Below, piece by piece: positions 4,885 to 25,327 of a stretch of 64,000 nucleotides of DNA. A program made the position numbers and the translations under genes. Origin of the DNA: Phycisphaerales bacterium (GTDB lineage: Bacteria > Planctomycetota > Phycisphaerae > Tepidisphaerales > Tepidisphaeraceae); the NCBI GenBank assembly GCA_020853095.1, contig JADYZN010000040.1, forward strand, positions 124,001-188,000, given 5' to 3'. The notes beneath the pieces were generated by a model. That model did no database searches and had not been told where the DNA came from. It worked only from the letters and a program-made list of their open reading frames with translations. Positions within the stretch are counted from its first letter, which is position 1. Every line of letters begins with the position of its first letter.

Positions 4885-6117
4885 TCAGCGCTCAAACGTC
4901 GGCGCGACGGCGGCGACGTAGCGCATGATCCGTTCATCCCGCTCCGTCCACGCCCTATCGCGCCGGGCGAAAACGCGGCGGGTGACTTCGATCGCCTTGT
5001 CCAGCGTATAGGACTGATCCCCCTCCTCGGTCAGAAAGCTGTAGCTGGGAATGTATCGCGGTAGATGATCGCCACGACCGACCATGCTGCAAAATCCAAC
5101 GTAACTGCCCGACTTGAAGACCGATTGCACCGCCGTCTTGACGTGATCGCCGATCAACGCACCCAGAAAATGCCGGCCGGATGCCACCTCCTGCCCCTCG
5201 ATGCGGGTGTGCACTTCTCCATAGGTGTTTTTCATGTTGCTGGTGGTGGTCCCCGCGCCAAGATTCACCCATTTGCCGACGTAGCTGTCGCCGACGTAAC
5301 CGTAATGCACCTTGTTGGTGTATCCCAGCAGGATCGAATTGGAGATTTCGCCCCCGACTTTTGACATCATGCCGATGCTCGTGCCGGCCTTGATGAACGT
5401 CTGCGGCATGATCTGGCAATATCGTCCGATGAAACAAGGGCCATGCACGACTGCGTTGGCGCCGATCGAAGCGTGATCCCCCACGAAGATCGGCCCCCGC
5501 GTGGCATCCAGCACGCATCCGGGTTGAAGCGACACCCCTTCCTCCAACCACACATCAGACTCATTGACCAGATAAAACGGACCGGCCGGCCGGGGATGGG
5601 GCACATCCCGCAGGCGGCTCCAGTCGGCCACCAGCGACACTTCATTCCAGCCGATCAGGTCGCACAGTGAATTGGCCAAACGGGTCTGCGGCATCGTTCG
5701 CGGCAAATTCGAAAGGTCCTGCCATCGCTGCGACCGCTCCAGCACATCCGACGGCGACAATCCCGGGCTTTGCACGTACGCGCTGCGCACCAATTCCAGG
5801 TCGTCCAGATCAACGCACGGCTGATGAGGATACTCAAACTTTGTCAGGTGGACCGTCCTGCCATTGACCAGCAGCGCCGGCTGGTCATCCAGCGGCTGGT
5901 TGACGGTCGTCGGCACAGGCATCTTCGGCACCAGCCGATCCTTGCAATGGTCAACCATCTCCGGGCGAACCCACAACGACAATCTCGTCGGCTCAAGAGA
6001 CCGCAACTGCTTGTCCAGGAGCGTGGACATCCCCGTCGCCAGCGTGAAGACCGGCCGGCTCAGCGCCAACGGCGCGAATCGATTCCAGCGACTCCCCTCA
6101 AAGATCACGATGTGCAT
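4885..6117 (-). CDS. GlmU-family sugar nucleotidyltransferase / left-handed beta-helix acyltransferase (alternative GlmU type)
   Basis: This 410-residue protein starts MHIVIFEGSRWNRFAPLAL, not the LAAGxGxRM loop of classical GlmU. Such starts are known from the alternative GlmU-like family of Bacteroidetes and Planctomycetes. From about residue 190 to 350 it has hexapeptide repeats of a left-handed beta-helix (IFVGDHASIGANAVVHG; GDSYVGKWVNLGAGTTTSN), as in the glucosamine-1-phosphate acetyltransferase half. I infer a role in UDP-N-acetylglucosamine or related nucleotide-sugar synthesis, in line with a GlmM-like mutase at 13.7 kb. The ATG has no Shine-Dalgarno, but a TATGAT box lies eight bases upstream. 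Confidence 0.8.
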   Translation of the reverse strand: MHIVIFEGSRWNRFAPLALSRPVFTLATGMSTLLDKQLRSLEPTRLSLWVRPEMVDHCKDRLVPKMPVPTTVNQPLDDQPALLVNGRTVHLTKFEYPHQPCVDLDDLELVRSAYVQSPGLSPSDVLERSQRWQDLSNLPRTMPQTRLANSLCDLIGWNEVSLVADWSRLRDVPHPRPAGPFYLVNESDVWLEEGVSLQPGCVLDATRGPIFVGDHASIGANAVVHGPCFIGRYCQIMPQTFIKAGTSIGMMSKVGGEISNSILLGYTNKVHYGYVGDSYVGKWVNLGAGTTTSNMKNTYGEVHTRIEGQEVASGRHFLGALIGDHVKTAVQSVFKSGSYVGFCSMVGRGDHLPRYIPSYSFLTEEGDQSYTLDKAIEVTRRVFARRDRAWTERDERIMRYVAAVAPTFER

Positions 6118-6125
6118 AAGGTTCC

Positions 6126-6131
6126 ATCATA
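6126..6131 (-). promoter_or_regulatory. -10 element eight bases before the GlmU-like start (leaderless candidate)
   Basis: TATGAT on the minus strand, with eight bases between it and the ATG at 6117. No convincing -35 box and no Shine-Dalgarno. The spacing fits transcription starting at or next to the start codon. Confidence 0.35.
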
Positions 6132-6212
6132 AATCCGCCGCCCAATCTCCACCATGCCCAACATTTGTCCATCGGAAATATCCGTCTGTGACTTGGGCCT
6201 GCGAACCCTCCC

Positions 6213-7049
6213 TTATGCATCTTTTTCAAACTCCTCCGCCGGTTCCGATAAAGCGGCCTCCGCCAACCCTGTCACCTTGATCCCCCTGATCGCAAGAAAC
6301 ATCGGAATTTCCTTGCGGGCGACGTTCTCGGCATGCGCCCGCGGCCCGGAGGTGCTGGTCTTGTGGCTCGCCCATTCCTCCATCGCATCCACCAGCAGCC
6401 CGGCCTGACGCATCGCCTTGACGTAACTTTCAATCGGCCGATGAAACGTCCAGGTATACTGCCCGGGCGCCTTTCCCGGATGGGTCACGATCGGGCTTTT
6501 TCGGGGAATCAGATATCGATCCACCCGCCGGTATTGCATCTTGTTCGCCTCATCCCACCCCCAGCTTGTTTCCTTGGGAGATCGAAAACAAGGGTGCATC
6601 ATGATGACCACCCACCTGCCCATCGGCTTCAATACCCGTGCCACGGCCGAGAAGACCCCCCCGATGGGATGAATGTTCTGAATCGCCAGCACGCACGCGG
6701 CCGCATCAAATGCGCCGACGGGCACGCCCGACAATTCCCGCGCATCGCCAAGCTGGTATCGAATCGACGCAGGCCCGCGCTGTCTGGCCGCTTCGATCAG
6801 GTCGGCCGCCGCATCCACCCCCATCGTCTGGACGCCGCTTTTTTGCAGCAATCGGCACAACACCCCCTGCCCGCACGCCACGTCGATGACGCTCTGCCCC
6901 GCTTGGGGATTCAGCAACCGCAGCACCCCCGGCAACACCACCTTGCGGTGATATTCCGAACCCTCCTCCCCCACCAACTGATCGTACCATCCGGCCACCT
7001 GATCCCAGTCCGTGGCCAATCCGGCCGTTCCCGGCTTTTGTTTCGACAT
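6213..7049 (-). CDS. Class I SAM-dependent methyltransferase
   Basis: This 278-residue protein has motif I VIDVACGQGVLCRLL near residues 74-88, followed by an acidic end of strand 2 (GVDAAADLIEAA), the usual SAM-binding layout of the UbiE/COQ5-like Methyltransf_11/25 group. A later segment FDAAACVLAIQNIHP is motif IV-like. The C-terminus ends in an acidic Glu-rich tail. The substrate cannot be inferred; neighbours are a GlmU-like gene and a CLC gene on the same strand with gaps of 95 and 66 bases. No Shine-Dalgarno is seen before the ATG; a weak TACCAT box ends six bases upstream. Confidence 0.85.
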   Translation of the reverse strand: MSKQKPGTAGLATDWDQVAGWYDQLVGEEGSEYHRKVVLPGVLRLLNPQAGQSVIDVACGQGVLCRLLQKSGVQTMGVDAAADLIEAARQRGPASIRYQLGDARELSGVPVGAFDAAACVLAIQNIHPIGGVFSAVARVLKPMGRWVVIMMHPCFRSPKETSWGWDEANKMQYRRVDRYLIPRKSPIVTHPGKAPGQYTWTFHRPIESYVKAMRQAGLLVDAMEEWASHKTSTSGPRAHAENVARKEIPMFLAIRGIKVTGLAEAALSEPAEEFEKDA

Positions 7050-7115
7050 GGCAAAATGGTAAAGGGACCGACGAACCGTGGCCAGAGGACAATACAGAAA
7101 GCCTGCCTCCCAACC

Positions 7116-8954
7116 TCAGCTTTCGGCCAGCTCCTTTTGATATCGCCTCATCAGCCCCGCGCGGGAGATCAGGCCGATCACCTTTCCATCGTTGCCCGCG
7201 ATCTCCACCGGCAATCGGGCCACATCGTGCCGGGCGAAGACATCCAGCACCGTCTCCAGCGCATCGGTGTTGCGGACCATCGGCACATCCGCCCGCATCA
7301 GCTCCCCCACCGTCAGGAGCGGGATCGCCTCGCGGTCGATCAATGCCGACTTGATCTCATCAGCGGTCAACATCCCCGCATACATTCCCCGCCGATCGAC
7401 GACGACAAAATCGTTGGTTTCCGAACCGGCGACCAAATCCCATATTTTCGCGAACGGATCGTCCATCCGCACCACCGTGGCGGGTTCCAGCATCACCTGC
7501 TCCACCATCATCCGCCGCAGCAACATCACATCCGCCACCGCCCCCAGCCGAACGCCCCGTTTTCGTAGGATCATGGTGTAGATCGAGTCGGCATACAAAA
7601 ACCGCGCCCCGCTGGTGGCGATGATGCACGCCAGCATCGCCGGCACGACAATCTGATAATCCCTGGTCACCTCGAACGTGATCAGCATCGCGGCCAACGG
7701 CGCATGCACCACCGCCGCCAGCACCGCCCCCATCCCCACCAGCGCATAGGCGTGAGGCTCTCCCCCGAATCCACCTCCGGTCAACAACAGCCCCACCATG
7801 CCGCCGCTGACCGCCCCCAGGAACAACGAGGGGGCAATGATCCCGCCCGCCCCGCCCGAACCCAGCGTCAAACACGTCCCCACCACCTTCATCACGCACA
7901 ACACCCCCAGCACCAGCAACAAAAATCCCCAGTGAAACTGCTGATAAAATTCCGGACCCAGCATCGGCCTGACCGCCCCATATCCATCCCCGAAAAACGC
8001 CGGCATCGAATACTGCGACCAGGGAATGAACTTCTGCTTGCCCAGCCCCCACCCCAGCGCCACGATATACGCCACCCCGATCCCGCCCAGCAACGCCCCA
8101 CCAATCGCCGGTTTGACGGCCATCGGCACGCGCATCTTCTCAAATCGCGCCTCCACCCAGTGCATCAACCTCGTGACGCACACCCCGACGAATGCGCACA
8201 ACACCCCCAGCAACGCGAAACTCCAAACCTGGGAAAAATGAAACGAGATCGGGATGTCCATCCGGGGCAGCGTGAAGATCGCCGCGTAAGGTTCATTGAA
8301 AACCTGCTGAAAGATCGACTGCGTGGCAAAGTTGGCGATCACCGACGCCACCACCACCGGCGCAAACGTCCGGATGGAAAAATCCCGCAGGATGACTTCC
8401 AGCGTGAACAGCACCCCGCCGATGGGCGCGTTGAAAATCGCCGAAATCCCCGCCGCCGAGCCGCATCCGATCAACACCGGCCCGTGCTGCCTGGCCACTC
8501 GAAACAGCCTCCCCACGCCCGAAGCGATCCCCGCCCCGATCTGAACGATCGGCCCTTCCGCCCCGGCCGACCCGCCGGATCCGATGGTGATCGCCGCTGT
8601 CACGATGCGCTCCAGAGCCACCTTGGGGTCAATCTGGCCGCCGGTCCGGCTGACCGATTCCATCACGTCGATAATTCCCCGCCCCTCGCGGATGCGAATG
8701 ATGTACCGGGTGAGAACCCCCACCGCCAACCCGCCCCCCGCCGGTATCACCACCAGCAGAAAGATCCACTTCCCATACAACGCCCCCGGACTGATGCGCT
8801 CATACAACATCTTGCGGATCAGCTCGATCAGCTCATGAAACCCCACTGCGGCGGCCGCCGTCAACACCCCGATCACGAACGCCAGCAACAGCAGCACCGT
8901 CTCCGGCCGAACCCTCACCCGCATCCCCATGCCACCCGATCGGACCGATTTCAT
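7116..8954 (-). CDS. CLC-family chloride channel/transporter with C-terminal CBS pair
   Basis: With the ATG at 8954 the protein has 612 residues. The membrane part carries the CLC signatures GSGGSAGAEGP (gating Glu E133) and a GGAGGIIAPSLFLG selectivity segment. At the position of the proton glutamate of transporters the residue is V187 (LFTLEVILR; E186 aligns with E202 of ClC-ec1), as in several channel-type CLCs. The last ~130 residues form two CBS domains (VEQVMLEPATVV; VGELMRADVPMV), probably an adenine-nucleotide sensor. The frame stays open for 64 more codons upstream, but these look non-coding. There is no Shine-Dalgarno; a TATTCT box ends eight bases before this ATG. Confidence 0.88.
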   Translation of the reverse strand: MKSVRSGGMGMRVRVRPETVLLLLAFVIGVLTAAAAVGFHELIELIRKMLYERISPGALYGKWIFLLVVIPAGGGLAVGVLTRYIIRIREGRGIIDVMESVSRTGGQIDPKVALERIVTAAITIGSGGSAGAEGPIVQIGAGIASGVGRLFRVARQHGPVLIGCGSAAGISAIFNAPIGGVLFTLEVILRDFSIRTFAPVVVASVIANFATQSIFQQVFNEPYAAIFTLPRMDIPISFHFSQVWSFALLGVLCAFVGVCVTRLMHWVEARFEKMRVPMAVKPAIGGALLGGIGVAYIVALGWGLGKQKFIPWSQYSMPAFFGDGYGAVRPMLGPEFYQQFHWGFLLLVLGVLCVMKVVGTCLTLGSGGAGGIIAPSLFLGAVSGGMVGLLLTGGGFGGEPHAYALVGMGAVLAAVVHAPLAAMLITFEVTRDYQIVVPAMLACIIATSGARFLYADSIYTMILRKRGVRLGAVADVMLLRRMMVEQVMLEPATVVRMDDPFAKIWDLVAGSETNDFVVVDRRGMYAGMLTADEIKSALIDREAIPLLTVGELMRADVPMVRNTDALETVLDVFARHDVARLPVEIAGNDGKVIGLISRAGLMRRYQKELAES

Positions 8955-15098: not shown

Positions 15099-16469
15099 TT
15101 GGCTGAATTGAAGCGTAAGGAACTCTCGGTTCACCAGGAGCGGGCGGTGCTGGTGGGCGTGATTTTGCCGCAATCCACGGCCGACCCGCGCAATCCCCTG
15201 GGGGAACTGGGATCGCTGGCCAAAACGGCCGGCGCCAAGGTGGTCGGCCAGGTTCTGCAAAAGCGCCAACATCCCGACGCCGGAACGTACGTCGGCAGCG
15301 GCAAGGCGATCGAAATCGCCCGGTTGGCCATGCAGAACCGCGCGGACGTGGTGGTGTTTGACAACGATCTGTCGCCCGGACAGATCGGCGCGCTGGAAAA
15401 AATCATCAACGAGGAAGCCCAGAGCAAACGGGGCGAGGGAATCAAGGTCCTGGATCGATCCGAATTGATCCTCGATATTTTCGCCGGCAGGGCGCAGACG
15501 CACGAGGCCCGATTGCAGGTGGAATTGGCCCAGATGCAGTACACCTACCCGCGGCTGACGCGGATGTGGGGACATCTGGAACGCATCGCCGGCGGAGCGC
15601 CGGCCGGCATCGGCACGCGCGGCCCCGGCGAACAGCAGTTGGAAATCGACCGGCGACTGGTCCGCAAACGCATCGCCGATCTGAAACACGAGATCGACAA
15701 GATCCAGGATCGCAAGTCGCGGCTGGTGTCCAAGCGCAACCAGGAACATTTCACGGTCTGCATCGTCGGATACACCAACGCGGGAAAAAGCACGCTTTTC
15801 AACACGCTGACGGCGGCCGGAGCGTATGCGGATGACAAGCTGTTCGCCACGCTGGACACCAAGACGCGGGCGTGGCGGCTGGAGCGCGGGACCGAGGTTT
15901 TATTGAGCGACACGGTGGGGTTCGTGCGGGATCTTCCGCACAACCTGGTGGCGTCGTTCAAGGCGACGCTGGAGGAAGCGATTCACGCGGACCTGCTGCT
16001 GCACGTGCTGGACGTGGGCCATCCACACGCCGAACAGCAATTCAAAAGCGTTCACCAGGTTCTGGATGAAATCGGCGCCAAGGACAAGCCGGAAATTCTG
16101 CTCCTGAACAAAATCGACGTCGAACAAGCGGCCGATGCCTGGCCGACCTGGCGGACGCTGCATCACGGTTCCATCGCCATCAGCGCCAAAACCGGCCAGG
16201 GGCTGGACGAGCTGCACGAGAGGGTCTATCGGCACGTACTCGGCCAGCAGGTGGAGGCGACGCTGGAAGCGGACGTGACCAACGGACGGTTGCTGGCGTA
16301 CATCGAGTCGCACAGCCGGGTGCGCGATCGAAAATTCGTGGATGGCCGGGTGGAAATCGTCGCGATCATCGGAAAACAAACCCTGGCCGAACTGGCGCGC
16401 AACGGCCAGTTGGTCATCAAATCCGTGCGTGAGGCATCGGGCGCAATGGAAAATTCGATCAGGGAATGA
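15099..16469 (+). CDS. hflX: GTPase HflX
   Basis: The 456-residue protein shows the HflX order: an N-terminal glycine-rich domain (AGTYVGSGKAIEI), the signature GGAPAGIGTRGPGEQQLE near 165-182, a basic coiled region, then the GTPase with G1 GYTNAGKST (224-232), G3 DTVGF and G4 NKID. HflX binds the 50S subunit and splits stalled ribosomes under stress. The start is a TTG preceded by GGAGG four bases away, consistent with the first conserved residues. Its last 11 bases overlap the tail of the convergent CvpA-like gene. Confidence 0.95.
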   Translation: MAELKRKELSVHQERAVLVGVILPQSTADPRNPLGELGSLAKTAGAKVVGQVLQKRQHPDAGTYVGSGKAIEIARLAMQNRADVVVFDNDLSPGQIGALEKIINEEAQSKRGEGIKVLDRSELILDIFAGRAQTHEARLQVELAQMQYTYPRLTRMWGHLERIAGGAPAGIGTRGPGEQQLEIDRRLVRKRIADLKHEIDKIQDRKSRLVSKRNQEHFTVCIVGYTNAGKSTLFNTLTAAGAYADDKLFATLDTKTRAWRLERGTEVLLSDTVGFVRDLPHNLVASFKATLEEAIHADLLLHVLDVGHPHAEQQFKSVHQVLDEIGAKDKPEILLLNKIDVEQAADAWPTWRTLHHGSIAISAKTGQGLDELHERVYRHVLGQQVEATLEADVTNGRLLAYIESHSRVRDRKFVDGRVEIVAIIGKQTLAELARNGQLVIKSVREASGAMENSIRE

Positions 16470-18327
16470 CCTGGTTGAAGGTCTGAATCGGCTGGTTGCG
16501 GAAATCGAGCGACCGGAGGTGGGTGTTGGCGGGGACGACGTACGCGATCCAGAGATCGGTGGGCGTGCCTTCTTCGCGGCCAAGGCTCATCACCGGCCCG
16601 TCGGCGCGATACATGGCGATGAGTTTGTCGCTGGTCCCCTGTTTAAGGCTGGTCCAGGCGCCGTTGGGTTTGTAATGCCGGCCGGAGGCGTCCACCAGGT
16701 CGATCTCGCCCAGTGAATTGGCCCACGCCCATTTGTCGGCGTTTTCCTGCGGGTTGGCATAACCGCTGATCTGCACCATGGTCATGCCCGGAGGAACGTA
16801 CAGGTCGCGGACGACGTATTCTCCCTGCGCCATCTTCTGAATCGAATCAACCGCGTTGATGTTGAGCATGGAAAATTTGCGTTCAGTCAGAGAAAACGTG
16901 CCCGATGCGATCTGGCCGTTGCGAACGTTGTCATCCGGCGTGCCGACGTTGATGGCGGTGAAGAGGCTGCGCGAACCGTCGATGTTGCTGTAACGAAACG
17001 GCGCGGCCGACGAAACACCCGGCGCGCCGGGTATCGGGCCGGGTGCGCCGGGCATCGGCGGCATCCCCGGTGCGCCCGGTGTGCCCGGGGCGGGGGCGTT
17101 CGGGCGTTTGTCCGATGCGCCTTTGCGTAAAACGTGAATCAGCGGCGAGGGGTTGATGGAGGGGTCAATTTTTTTGCCGGATAAATCCACCTTGGCCAGA
17201 CGTTTGACTTCGAGGAAGACACCGGGATCGACGCTCAGACCTTCATCTTTCGCGCCCTGGGCCACATCCGATTGATCGACCAGAAAGACCAGATCGGCTC
17301 CCATGTCCTCGCCGGTGATCGAGACAAACAACGGATCGTCGATGCGGTTGTTGATCAGCAGGTTGGCGTTTTCCAGCGTGCCGATGGGATGATAGTTTTT
17401 GCCGTTGGCCACCAGCCGGACCGCACCGGGACTGAACCGGAATATTTTGTCCTTGTCGGTGGCGTTGATGTCAAAGATGGCCCGCACCACCAGCAACATC
17501 TGATCCGGAGCGGGCTTGAGCATCACCGGAAGCTGTCGGGTGCGGATCGAGTTGACTTCCGCATCCGACTGGGCGACCTGCGACAGGGAATAGACGCCGG
17601 CCACTTTCACCCATTCGGCCACGCCGGGGATGTTGATGGCCGTGTGCATCGCTCCGGGCTGAATGCCCAGCCGGCTGGTGTACATCTCCAAGGCATAATC
17701 GGGATGAACCGATTGCACGGTACGTTGTCCGGCCAGCGAGCCGGCGCTCAGATGCTCAGCCAACCCCAGCACCATCTCATCAACCGAGGGGATCAGCGAT
17801 TGCGCGCGGGCGTTTTCCTCAACATCGGCGCCGGCGCCGATCCGATCCACCGATACTTCGTCGAACACCTGTGCATCATACATCCGGTTGTTGAGACTGA
17901 CCTTGACCGGCCGGTCGGTGACCGGATATCGGGAAAAATAGGCGATCGTCACCCCAAACGGCAACGACTGTGCCGCGAGGGCGAAAATGCCGGTGGCGAA
18001 GATGCCGGCGATGATTCCCATGACCGCGCCGCCCACCTTGTCCACCACGGCCGGAAAACGCACGTTGCCGGGAATGGCACGGTCGAAGATCAATCGCAGG
18101 ATGACGTAAATCGCCGCGAAAAGAATCACCAGCGACATGGCCAGCGCCTGATCGCCGAATCGCCCTTTGAGCAGCATCATCACGAGTGTTTCGTGATAAC
18201 CAAACGCCAGCATCGCGGCGACAATCGCGATGACGGCCGAGATCGTGGCGCTGAAAAATCCCTGGACGTAGTGGAAAAAGGCGATCAGGCCGATCAGGAC
18301 AATGATGATGATGTTGAAAAGGCTCAT
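16459..18327 (-). CDS. CvpA-like membrane protein with large extracytoplasmic C-terminal region
   Basis: The 622-residue protein begins with four hydrophobic segments in the first ~130 residues, in a pattern like the CvpA/colicin V production family (MSLFNIIIIVLIGLIAFFHY at the start). The remaining ~480 residues are soluble and contain a Pro/Gly-rich linker (GAPGMPPMPGAPGPIPGAPG) near residues 420-445 that separates two beta-rich parts. No catalytic motif was seen. Planctomycete CvpA-like proteins of this size are usually of unknown function. The gene is followed tail-to-tail by hflX and preceded after 53 bases by the GspE-like gene on the same strand. Confidence 0.65.
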   Translation of the reverse strand: MSLFNIIIIVLIGLIAFFHYVQGFFSATISAVIAIVAAMLAFGYHETLVMMLLKGRFGDQALAMSLVILFAAIYVILRLIFDRAIPGNVRFPAVVDKVGGAVMGIIAGIFATGIFALAAQSLPFGVTIAYFSRYPVTDRPVKVSLNNRMYDAQVFDEVSVDRIGAGADVEENARAQSLIPSVDEMVLGLAEHLSAGSLAGQRTVQSVHPDYALEMYTSRLGIQPGAMHTAINIPGVAEWVKVAGVYSLSQVAQSDAEVNSIRTRQLPVMLKPAPDQMLLVVRAIFDINATDKDKIFRFSPGAVRLVANGKNYHPIGTLENANLLINNRIDDPLFVSITGEDMGADLVFLVDQSDVAQGAKDEGLSVDPGVFLEVKRLAKVDLSGKKIDPSINPSPLIHVLRKGASDKRPNAPAPGTPGAPGMPPMPGAPGPIPGAPGVSSAAPFRYSNIDGSRSLFTAINVGTPDDNVRNGQIASGTFSLTERKFSMLNINAVDSIQKMAQGEYVVRDLYVPPGMTMVQISGYANPQENADKWAWANSLGEIDLVDASGRHYKPNGAWTSLKQGTSDKLIAMYRADGPVMSLGREEGTPTDLWIAYVVPANTHLRSLDFRNQPIQTFNQVIP

Positions 18328-18380: not shown

Positions 18381-20093
18381 CTACGCGACGGCCGGATTTT
18401 GCGGGCCTTTATCGGGTGGCCGGGATGCCGGTCGGCTGGAAGAACCCGAGGCTTCATTGCCCGCTTTCAAAACGCGCAACACCTCCTGGATGCTGGTGTC
18501 GCCCGCCTCGACGAGGCTTAACGCCTGTTCCTGCAAATACTTGGAACGCTGCTTGCGGAAGATGGCTTTCAGTTGGTTGACCGACCCGCCGGACGTGACG
18601 ATTTGTCGCACTTCATCGTCCACCTGCAGGATTTCGTAAATGCCGGTTCGACCATGAAATCGCAGATCATGGCAAAACTCGCACGAAAGTGGGTTGCCCT
18701 TGGCATCCCGCAACGGTTCGGTGCGGGCCTGGTACAGTTTGCTGATGCGGTCGGGGTCCATGTTCATCTTGCGCAACGTGGCGGGGTCGGGGGCATAGCC
18801 CACCTTGCAGGCGGTGCAGAGCTTTCGCAACACCCGGCCATTGATGATCATTTCCAGATTCTGCATGGCCTGTTTGTCGTTGCCGACGATCTTTCGCCAG
18901 TTGGACAACGCCTCGAATGTGTTGGCCGCCCGCGTCCCGACATAGACGCGGTGGCCGGCGGCGGCATATTTGATGAGGATGGCGGCGCTCTTGGGGTCGC
19001 GCACCTCGTTGATCATGAAGACATCCGGCTCGCGATCGACCACCCATTGCACCCGTTCGGTTTCTTCGGTGTTGGTGGCGTTGAGGGGGAGTGATTCCTG
19101 CGTGATTCCTTCAAGGTCCTGATCCGGATCGCGTTCGATGGTGATGATATGGCTCAGGAACGCATCATGGGAGCGGATCAATGCGTACAACATCGAGGTC
19201 AGCCCATGTTCGTGCGGCGAACTGACCAAGACGATGCCCTTGCCTTCGGCGACCGATGCCTGAATTTTTTCCAGTTGCGTGCCGGACAGACCAAGCTGTT
19301 GAAGGGTCAGGCAATGGCGGGTCTTGGCATCGGTGCGGAGGGTCATGGATTCGCCCGATGAGCTGCCGCTGGTCAACAGTTGCAATTCCCGCCGTTTGCC
19401 ATCGAGCGTGGCGCGGAACCCGCCGGTCTGGGGTTTGCGTTTCTCCTTGAGGTCCAGGCCGGCCAGTTCCTTCACGAACGACACCGCCCCGGCGCTGGCG
19501 CCGCGAGGCAGCGACAGGGAATTGTAACTGACCCCATCCACCTCAAACTGCACCGTGGACGCCCCTTCACCGGGCGTCACGTCGATGCGCTGAGCCCCTT
19601 TTCGCAGGGGATCGGTCAGCACCTGCTGCACCGCATCGTACGCCGCCCGTTCGGGCGCTTCGGCCGGCGGGGCCGCGACCGGCGAGCCGGCACGGTTGAA
19701 CAACAGCACTTCCCCCTCGGCCACCTTCACCTCGGATGGCTTTCTCGCAAAACTCCTGATCCAGTCGCTGAATTGTTTTTGCAAATCCCCCAACCCGACT
19801 TTGCGATGCCGGATGAACAAATAGGCGGCCGCGGCGACGATCATCACCAGCAGCATCACTCCAAACGCCGCCCAGAACCCTCCCATGTAAAGGAACAGCA
19901 CAATCGCCAAAATCCCCGCCGACATCTGGCCGATGTTGTTCTCGATGCGCGGAAGATGCGCCGCGGGCGCATCCTTGTCCATCCAGGTCATCCATCTCGT
20001 CCAGATCAGAAAAATCACCACCAGCGGGATCGTCTTCCATACGCTGATGTATTCCCCAACCGGCACCTGTGCCAGCAGCACACTCAAATCCAT
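18381..20093 (-). CDS. GspE/PilB-like protein with membrane N-terminus and degenerate P-loop (pseudo-ATPase)
   Basis: This 570-residue protein has hydrophobic helices at about 20-35 and 58-93, a linker, and then a domain that follows type II/IV secretion ATPases. The Walker A position reads SSPHEHGLTS (291-300) instead of GPTGSGKTT, so the lysine and GKT are missing. Walker B is altered to DVFMINEVRD (357-366), and the His box is replaced by VGTRAAN. The tetra-cysteine zinc site is kept: C426/C429 and C471/C474, with GRTGIYEIL after it. It therefore looks like a structural or regulatory relative, not an ATP-driven motor. GAAGGAGTC precedes the ATG. Family placement is good; loss of activity is inferred. 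Confidence 0.8.
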   Translation of the reverse strand: MDLSVLLAQVPVGEYISVWKTIPLVVIFLIWTRWMTWMDKDAPAAHLPRIENNIGQMSAGILAIVLFLYMGGFWAAFGVMLLVMIVAAAAYLFIRHRKVGLGDLQKQFSDWIRSFARKPSEVKVAEGEVLLFNRAGSPVAAPPAEAPERAAYDAVQQVLTDPLRKGAQRIDVTPGEGASTVQFEVDGVSYNSLSLPRGASAGAVSFVKELAGLDLKEKRKPQTGGFRATLDGKRRELQLLTSGSSSGESMTLRTDAKTRHCLTLQQLGLSGTQLEKIQASVAEGKGIVLVSSPHEHGLTSMLYALIRSHDAFLSHIITIERDPDQDLEGITQESLPLNATNTEETERVQWVVDREPDVFMINEVRDPKSAAILIKYAAAGHRVYVGTRAANTFEALSNWRKIVGNDKQAMQNLEMIINGRVLRKLCTACKVGYAPDPATLRKMNMDPDRISKLYQARTEPLRDAKGNPLSCEFCHDLRFHGRTGIYEILQVDDEVRQIVTSGGSVNQLKAIFRKQRSKYLQEQALSLVEAGDTSIQEVLRVLKAGNEASGSSSRPASRPPDKGPQNPAVA

Positions 20094-22988: not shown

Positions 22989-25061
22989 TTACCAGTTGGC
23001 GACGACCGGAACATCTCCGGTCAGGCCAAAGGCGAAACCGCTGTCGCCGCCGGTGTAACCGCGGGTGGCATCGTTGTCGAAGGACCAGCCGCCGTTGCGA
23101 TAGACGCCGACGCGGGTGGCGCCCGAACCGACCCAGTCTCCCAGGATCGGCACGTCGCCGCTCAGGCCGAAGGCGAATCCGCTGTCGCCGCCGGTGTAGC
23201 CGCGGGAGCCATCGTCGTCAAAGGCCCAGCCGCCATTGCGGTAGACGCCGATGTCGCTGCGGCCGACGCCTTTCCAGTCGCCGACGATCGGGACATCGCC
23301 CGCCAGGCCAAAGTCAAAGCCCGCATCGCCGCCGGTGGCGCCGATGGTTCCATCGCTGTCCAAGGCCCAGCCACCGTTGCGGAAGACGCCCACATCGGTC
23401 TTGCCGTCGCCGTTCCAGTCGCCGACGATCGGGACATCTCCCGCCTGGCCGTAGCCAAACTGGGCGTCGCCGACCTGGAAGCCGATGGTTCCGTTGGAAT
23501 CTAGGATCCACAGGCCGTTGCGGAAGACGCCCACATCGGTCTTGCCGTCGCCGTTCCAGTCGCCGACCACCGGCTTGTCGCCGGCCTGTCCGAGGACGAA
23601 CTGGGCGTCGCCGACCTGGAAGCCGGCGATGCCGTTGGTGTCCAGTATCCATGTGCCATCCCGGAAGATGCCGGCGCGTTCCTTGCCGACGCCGTTCCAG
23701 TCGCCGACCACCGTCTTGTCGCCGGTGGTTCCCAAGGTGAAACCGCTGTCGCCGGCGGTGTAGCCGGGCACGGCGTCGCTGTCGACCGCCCATCCGCCGT
23801 TGCGGAAGATGCCAACCGTCTGGGCGGGCAGGAAATTGTAGCGGGCCAGGCCGATGTCGGTGGTGACGCCGGTCGCCAGGCCGGCGGCGACGATTTTGCC
23901 GGTGGATTGCACCGCGATGGCCGCGGCGTTGTCACCGCCGGCGCTGAAGTCGGTGGTGATCTTGCCGGCGTTGCCCCAGGTGGTGTCCACCGTGCCGTTG
24001 CCATTGAATCGGGCGATGGCGAAGTTGCCGGCGCCGACCCCGCCGGTGAAACCGGCCGTCACAATCTTGCCGTCGCCGGTCAGCGCGACGCTGCGGGCCT
24101 GGTCGAGGCTGTTGGTAAAGTCGAGCGTGGTGATGCCGCCGGTTCCGAACGATGTATCCAGCGAGCCGTTGGAGTTGAACCGGGCCAGCCCCATGGCGGT
24201 GTTCAACGGACCGGACAACTCGGTGTCGCCGGCGACAACGATCTTGTCTCCCTGCAACACCAGCGCCCGGGCGGTGTCGGTGTTGCCGGCGAAATCGGCG
24301 CCGGTGGCTCCGCCAGACCCGAAGGCCCCATCCTGCTGGCCGGTAGTGGTGAAGCGCATGAGCGTGAAATTCTCACCGGTGGCCGTAACCAGCAGTCGCT
24401 GGCTGCCATCGAGAATCGCTCCGGTCGCTGCGGGCAGCGCGGCGCTGGAGATCATGCCGTTGGTGCCATAGCTCGTATCAATCGAACCGTTGGCGTTGAG
24501 CCGGACGATGGCCAGTTGCGTGCTGCTTGGCCCGCCGCTGCTGACCGAGCCGACGACGATGATCTTGTCCCCCTGCATGACCACGCCGGTGGCGTTGTCC
24601 TGGGCAAGGAAATTGACGACGACTTTGCCGCCGGTGCCAAAATTGGTGTCCAGCGTGCCATCGGTCTTGTACCGCGCGATGGCGAAATCGGAATTGACGC
24701 CGTCGGAATAAAACGCCCGGCCGGCCAGGATGATCTTGCCATCCGTCTGCAGGGCAATGGCGTTGGCTTCATCCTGGTTGCCGAAGAAATCGGTGGCCGA
24801 CTTGCCCGCCCCGCCAAAGCCGGAGGGAACCAGCGTTCCGTTGGCGTTGTACTTGGTCAGCGCGAAATCAGAACTGTTGGCCTGATTGCCGTTGGCGGTG
24901 CTGCCGGCGACAAAAATGTTGTTCGAACCGTCAATCGCCATCGCCGAACCGGTGTCGTTGCGATTGAGAATGTCGGTGGTGGTCTTGCCGAGGGTGCCGA
25001 AGGTCGGGTCCAGTACGCCCGCCGACAACAATCGACGCTCTTCCAATGCCTCAATGTGCAT
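22989..25061 (-). CDS. Exported delta-60 repeat / VCBS-like repeat protein with planctomycete N-terminal motif
   Basis: From the ATG at 25061 (GGAG seven bases upstream) the protein has 690 residues. It starts MHIEALEERRLLSAG, the planctomycete extracellular motif. Residues ~15-430 are delta-60 repeats of ~55 residues (LDPTFGTLGK, then ALQTDGKIILAGR, FAIARYKTDGTLD), a probable beta-propeller. Residues ~430-690 are about six repeats of ~43 residues with the core GDWNGDGKTDVGVFRNG, like FG-GAP/VCBS calcium-binding blades. No enzyme motif is seen. The DNA of the C-terminal repeats (23000-23800) is itself strongly repetitive. A terminator follows. Its likely place is the outer surface or medium. 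Confidence 0.85.
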   Translation of the reverse strand: MHIEALEERRLLSAGVLDPTFGTLGKTTTDILNRNDTGSAMAIDGSNNIFVAGSTANGNQANSSDFALTKYNANGTLVPSGFGGAGKSATDFFGNQDEANAIALQTDGKIILAGRAFYSDGVNSDFAIARYKTDGTLDTNFGTGGKVVVNFLAQDNATGVVMQGDKIIVVGSVSSGGPSSTQLAIVRLNANGSIDTSYGTNGMISSAALPAATGAILDGSQRLLVTATGENFTLMRFTTTGQQDGAFGSGGATGADFAGNTDTARALVLQGDKIVVAGDTELSGPLNTAMGLARFNSNGSLDTSFGTGGITTLDFTNSLDQARSVALTGDGKIVTAGFTGGVGAGNFAIARFNGNGTVDTTWGNAGKITTDFSAGGDNAAAIAVQSTGKIVAAGLATGVTTDIGLARYNFLPAQTVGIFRNGGWAVDSDAVPGYTAGDSGFTLGTTGDKTVVGDWNGVGKERAGIFRDGTWILDTNGIAGFQVGDAQFVLGQAGDKPVVGDWNGDGKTDVGVFRNGLWILDSNGTIGFQVGDAQFGYGQAGDVPIVGDWNGDGKTDVGVFRNGGWALDSDGTIGATGGDAGFDFGLAGDVPIVGDWKGVGRSDIGVYRNGGWAFDDDGSRGYTGGDSGFAFGLSGDVPILGDWVGSGATRVGVYRNGGWSFDNDATRGYTGGDSGFAFGLTGDVPVVANW

Positions 25062-25327
25062 GTTGATCTCCAATATCCTTTCCCATCGAACCGCACGGTG
25101 TCCGGCAATCCTGCCGGCCGTCATCGTGTTCGTTATCCTGTCGGGCAACCGCTTCATCAATTGAAGCCGTAGTGCCCAACCGGGGCGGGAGTATAACCGA
25201 GAAACCCACCGGGCGAGAATAGGTCAAATCACGGGAATTTGATGTTCACCCACTATGAAAAGGCCCAATAATTGCTTTATTCGGCTTAAGATGCCATACA
25301 CTCCCCTAACATGCCCATCCGTGCAAC

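Follow-up and report, generated by a model that had tools for sequence, protein, structure and literature searches.

A conserved membrane-anchored GspE/PilB-like protein without a P-loop, encoded beside a CvpA-like protein in Phycisphaerae

What is left for a protein with the fold of a secretion ATPase to do once its catalytic residues are gone? The question is raised by a gene in the window (i.e. the whole 64,000-nucleotide stretch of Phycisphaerales DNA analysed here), located on the minus strand (18381..20093) and recognized as an open reading frame with a match to the Pfam family T2SSE (PF00437). Its product, of 570 amino acids, is a membrane-anchored GspE/PilB-like protein without a P-loop, which a preliminary description, made from the sequence alone, had interpreted as a membrane-bound scaffold or regulator derived from a secretion ATPase and possibly acting with an active paralogue. 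In the open-licence literature on GspE, PilB, PilT, CvpA, pseudo-ATPases, and planctomycetes, we found no description of this protein or of its operon.

Residues 154-540 match T2SSE with 174.7 bits (cut-off 24.9)—a whole-domain match that, together with the fold described below, places the protein in the GspE/PilB superfamily. Its scores against the NCBIfam models type_II_gspE (199.4 bits) and pilB (172.7 bits) lie below the respective curated cut-offs of 630.25 and 675.65 bits. The reading frame aligns with PilF of Thermus, GspE, and PilB of solved structure, and the alignment puts SSPHEHGLTS (residues 291-300; 19194..19223, minus strand) exactly opposite the Walker A sequence GPTGSGKS, where the preliminary description had located a degenerate P-loop. 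Leu298 replaces the lysine, so that the GxxxxGK[ST] signature of a working motor is missing, and the last glycine (G297) is retained. The altered Walker B motif, DVFMINEVRD (residues 357-366; 18996..19025, minus strand), was also read correctly, with the nuance that its catalytic glutamate, Glu363, is still there, as it is in only 15 of the 87 P-loop-less sequences compared below. The former His box, GHRVYVGTRAAN (residues 380-391; 18921..18956, minus strand), reads GTRAAN in the window protein, with R388 in the place of the catalytic histidine of a working motor, and is lost, as claimed. Both CxxC pairs are present (C426, C429, C471, and C474; 18672..18818, minus strand), giving the protein the tetracysteine zinc domain that is found in assembly ATPases and is absent from retraction ATPases (PMC5061722).

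A P-loop relocated to another part of the protein was considered and rejected: elsewhere in the window protein there is no such pattern, only two bare GK dipeptides. Three chance P-loop patterns occur in other family members, all outside the P-loop position of the fold. The ATP cycle is not usable in the normal way by the window protein, and, as far as residues and fold allow a judgement, it represents a class-wide pseudo-ATPase, a member of GspE/PilB by fold and not a working member by its residues.

An AlphaFold2 model, run on an alignment of 52 orthologues (mean pLDDT 90.6), has the PilB/GspE fold following three predicted N-terminal membrane helices, and its best matches among solved structures are PilF, PilB, and GspE (VIA Z 35-37, rmsd 2.8-3.4 Å over 365-382 residues). 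The helices (residues 18-44, 49-69, and 73-98; 19800..20042, minus strand) form two hydrophobic stretches, in agreement with the two-part membrane N-terminus noted previously; they replace the soluble N1/MshEN-type domain and are conserved across the family. In some relatives (e.g. L136), a signal-peptide-like stretch precedes the three helices, which suggests that the N-terminus faces outward and that the GspE/PilB fold lies in the cytoplasm. The protein thus shares with GspE, PilB, and PilF the fold of the N2 and C-terminal domains, the zinc tetracysteine domain, and the order of the motifs, but differs from them in having neither the Walker A lysine nor the catalytic histidine, in its three-helix membrane N-terminus instead of a soluble N1 domain, and in its location outside any pilus or type II secretion cluster.

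The CvpA-like reading frame reported 53 bases downstream starts at 18327, as described, and encodes a membrane protein of 622 amino acids with a long C-terminal region (16459..18327, minus strand). Its N-terminal 123 residues match Colicin_V (PF02674) with 26.5 bits against a gathering cut-off of 29.3 (31.1 bits in the genome search), the cut-off is exceeded in some relatives, and the protein is the only Colicin_V match in the window's genome. Of 99 loci, 96 have a CvpA-like gene directly downstream of the anchored GspE-like gene, and in one of the three exceptions the contig stops shortly beyond the GspE-like gene. Enteric CvpA has four to five predicted membrane segments and has been linked to bile-salt resistance (PMC6705877). 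The likeness to CvpA lies in the N-terminal membrane region, whereas the Phycisphaerae protein carries a long extra C-terminal region: its length is mostly 340-850 amino acids in Phycisphaerae and about 185-275 in the other sampled families. In the window's protein, residues ~125-622 contain conserved blocks (e.g. HPDY..E...RLG.Q.GA), have no match in Pfam, and are probably extracytoplasmic.

How general is the loss of the P-loop? A search with a family profile recovered one full-length match each in 145 of 148 sampled Phycisphaerae genomes (two cut by contig ends), and a contig scan, which detects close relatives only, gave full-length matches in planctomycetes alone. We compared 87 P-loop-less sequences, most of them from Phycisphaerae and seven from three other families (f74, f81, and f88), with 17 P-loop-bearing ones, four from the window's genome and 13 of the anchored kind. 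Every motif is canonical in all 17 of the latter. Among the 87, the Walker A lysine (position 298) and the His-box histidine (position 388) are found in none and the Asp-box aspartate in six, and the zinc cysteines are kept in 82-85; a state shared by so many sequences is beyond what chance would give. The identity of the window protein to orthologues of its own family outside the genus is 36-53%, and comparison with a same-genus orthologue (90% identity) gives a dN/dS of 0.087. From the state of the motifs and this ratio, it follows that the catalytic loss is old and that the gene is under purifying selection.

These data bear on whether the gene is merely a decaying remnant without function. 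The lost catalytic motifs fit decay, as do a copy in one genome (G009) that is split over three frames along with its CvpA-like neighbour and the loss of zinc cysteines in one genus (g25); however, a gene that is full length and single-copy throughout nearly the whole class, with a dN/dS as low as this and a gene order retained across deep divergence, makes decay scarcely credible as a general account. The split copy (L081; G009:C3, about 5700-8620) belongs to the window's family and has several intact reading frames around it; either joint decay or a local assembly error may be at work. In g25 (L076, L077, and L078), the zinc site reads LAESSR or LAKSSR and CPES; this is the only such group seen with three of the four zinc cysteines lost.

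The same alignment speaks to a second possibility, namely that the protein is a working ATPase that makes use of non-standard residues, as kinases with a moved lysine do. A lysine at loop position 294 in 24 of the 87 members and an arginine at 298 in 17 would suit such an enzyme, but the window protein has H294 and L298, the catalytic histidine is absent from 87/87 and the Walker B glutamate from 72/87, and the replacements are inconsistent between orthologues; we regard this explanation as very unlikely. More credible, though still unlikely in our judgement, is a nucleotide-sensing regulator, in which the altered pocket would bind ATP, ADP, or another nucleotide without hydrolysing it and the bound state would control the CvpA-like protein. 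Pocket residues G297 (87/87), E320 (86/87), and threonine or serine at 299 (81/87) are consistent with it, as are the retained Glu363 of the window protein and the suggestion that nucleotide-free PilB is the signalling form in Myxococcus (PMC5544727). Unlike the residues of a maintained ligand site, though, the P-loop lysine and first glycine, the Walker B glycine and glutamate, and the Asp-box aspartate vary freely among orthologues, and the substitute lysine has no fixed place, K294 being a minority state.

Relatives that still carry the P-loop reveal where the protein came from. In a phylum-wide search, full-length matches (membrane part included) were told from ordinary GspE/PilB matches, which start near residue 125-160, and full-length members were found in six family groups outside Phycisphaerae. 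In three of these (f41, f89, and f48), the protein has GPTGAGKS or GPTGHGKT, GEIRD, and a His box, with the anchor and the neighbours as in the window gene (L136-L148); in the other three (f74, f81, and f88), those motifs are lost. The P-loop-bearing proteins with the same membrane N-terminus bear out the proposed descent from a secretion-type ATPase. Set against the four canonical GspE/PilB proteins of the window's genome, the anchored proteins form one clade (100/100; motif columns left out).

The number of losses is answered differently by different trees. The ATPase-family gene tree brings all P-loop-less members together with modest support (90/91), favouring one loss; two losses are compatible with it as well (p-AU 0.079). 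RpoB, by contrast, groups f74, f81, and f88 with f41 and f89 (100/99), and a union of the first three with Phycisphaerae is rejected (p-AU 0.0008); the tree of the PilT-type partner discussed below is concordant (f89, f81, f74, and f41 together; 100/99). On the RpoB result, and barring transfer of the gene, there were at least two losses of catalysis, in Phycisphaerae and in f74/f81/f88; that these silent groups cluster in the gene tree is probably a long-branch effect. A single loss, for which only the gene tree speaks, was set aside.

Loss of catalysis in an anchored protein leaves the question of whether an active paralogue works beside it. The order of the operon is PilT-like ATPase with an intact P-loop, membrane GspE-like protein, and CvpA-like protein. 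The PilT-like gene lies directly upstream in 50/56 Phycisphaerae loci that do not belong to the window's family, as well as in 12/20 loci of other families (62/76 in total); the P-loop is present in 89/89 PilT-like sequences collected, and the P-loop lysine, Walker B glutamate, and histidine are invariant in 20 aligned members. These partners form a separate subfamily (100/97 with one distant row, 98/94 without it) and score 530-603 bits against their profile, compared with about 330-450 bits for most other PilT proteins. Eight f41 loci have no adjacent PilT; in the f41 genomes, g24, and G038, the partner type is encoded elsewhere in the genome when it is not adjacent. The window's own family (f1) is different: an adjacent PilT is found at 0/23 loci, and the best PilT profile score in six genomes tested is 398-411 bits. 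Judged by these scores, the dedicated PilT has been lost from the family, which means that PilT is not an obligate partner everywhere. The idea of an active paralogue acting alongside is strengthened by this upstream neighbour in most lineages, but not in the one from which the window comes; in the window's genome, the active PilT genes and the active GspE/PilB genes that the preliminary description asked about lie on other contigs.

The most conserved PilT-like protein of the window's family, L010 (G000:C26:22500-23675), has 69-96% identity across that family, far above the identity of the GspE-like protein. As the dedicated partner in a new location it was rejected, since it falls in a sister clade and a tree uniting it with the partners is rejected (p-AU 0.026); it is a possible substitute motor.

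The silent protein might instead work within the cell's ordinary type IV pilus or type II secretion systems, either braking them in a dominant manner or joining active PilB or GspE in mixed rings. Such machines are at hand: T2SSF platform proteins are encoded in 61/61 genomes checked, and the window's genome encodes nine further T2SSE-family proteins that exceed the cut-off (eight were read, all with a P-loop). The operon itself, though, has a PilC-like gene in the sampled flanks of 1/100 loci and pilin-type N-termini in 8/100, a scarcity indicating that it does not form part of a pilus or secretion cluster. The protein is also anchored by helices of its own and has dedicated neighbours, a CvpA-like protein and, in most lineages, a distinct PilT subfamily; we hold a brake on pili or secretion to be a shade less probable than the nucleotide sensor.

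Precedents for a silent ring come from type IV pilus motors, whose mutants reveal that loss of catalysis need not make a ring dispensable. In Vibrio cholerae, pilus retraction by PilU requires PilT but is supported even by a Walker A or B mutant of it, and the two are separate homohexamers that interact (PMC6821130, PMC6762196); ATPase-deficient PilB of Myxococcus xanthus still signals (PMC5544727). By analogy with PilT and PilU, the silent member would be needed for the active paralogue, the genes of the two being adjacent in most lineages; it differs in being natural, fixed class-wide, GspE-like, and anchored in the membrane, with a CvpA-like protein beside it. The M. xanthus case resembles ours in a regulatory role retained without hydrolysis but concerns a laboratory mutant of a working motor and has no link to CvpA.

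On these analogies, we favour, with a probability of roughly 55%, a non-catalytic ring that, anchored in the membrane and tied to the CvpA-like protein, serves as an adaptor or regulator and, where a PilT-type motor is present, is either driven or read by that motor. The GspE-like fold, probably still ring-forming, would be fixed to the cytoplasmic side of the membrane by the three helices, which would stand in for the soluble N-terminal domain with which its relatives dock on other components of their machines. Such a ring would most likely be a fixed adaptor or a conformational switch between the CvpA-like protein and the cytoplasmic PilT-type motor, from which ATP hydrolysis would come in most lineages. 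In the window's family, the pseudo-ATPase would have to work by itself or with a different PilT paralogue, and this loss of the dedicated PilT is the main difficulty for the adaptor model. The eight f41 loci with no adjacent PilT, the two f41 genomes described below, and the retained Glu363 also count against it, and ATP binding without the lysine is conceivable.

An extension of the adaptor model, which we put forward only tentatively, is a phylum-level envelope machine, distinct from pili and secretion systems, in which a PilT-type motor and the anchored GspE-like ring work with a CvpA-type protein in place of the PilC/GspF platform, the ring having become a pure mechanical coupler in two lineages. 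A natural, ancient, and near-universal silent ring would offer a clean system for what such rings do besides burning ATP, and would provide CvpA, which is widespread and of unclear function, with a mechanical partner. The occurrence of the anchored protein with and without a P-loop beside the same neighbours in different lineages permits direct comparison.

Three minor observations follow. Two f41 genomes (G285, C1:6421853-6422968, 533 bits; G308, C12:1817-2926, 546 bits) contain a partner-type PilT and, in the phylum-wide search, gave no full-length membrane GspE-like match. An apparent PilT and GspE-like fusion in L072/L073 was rejected, the long reading frames being spurious upstream read-through and the PilT a separate overlapping frame. 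In the window itself, the C-terminal part of a 723-amino acid protein (22989-25160, minus strand) contains repeats of the form GIFRNGGW...GDSGF...GDW.
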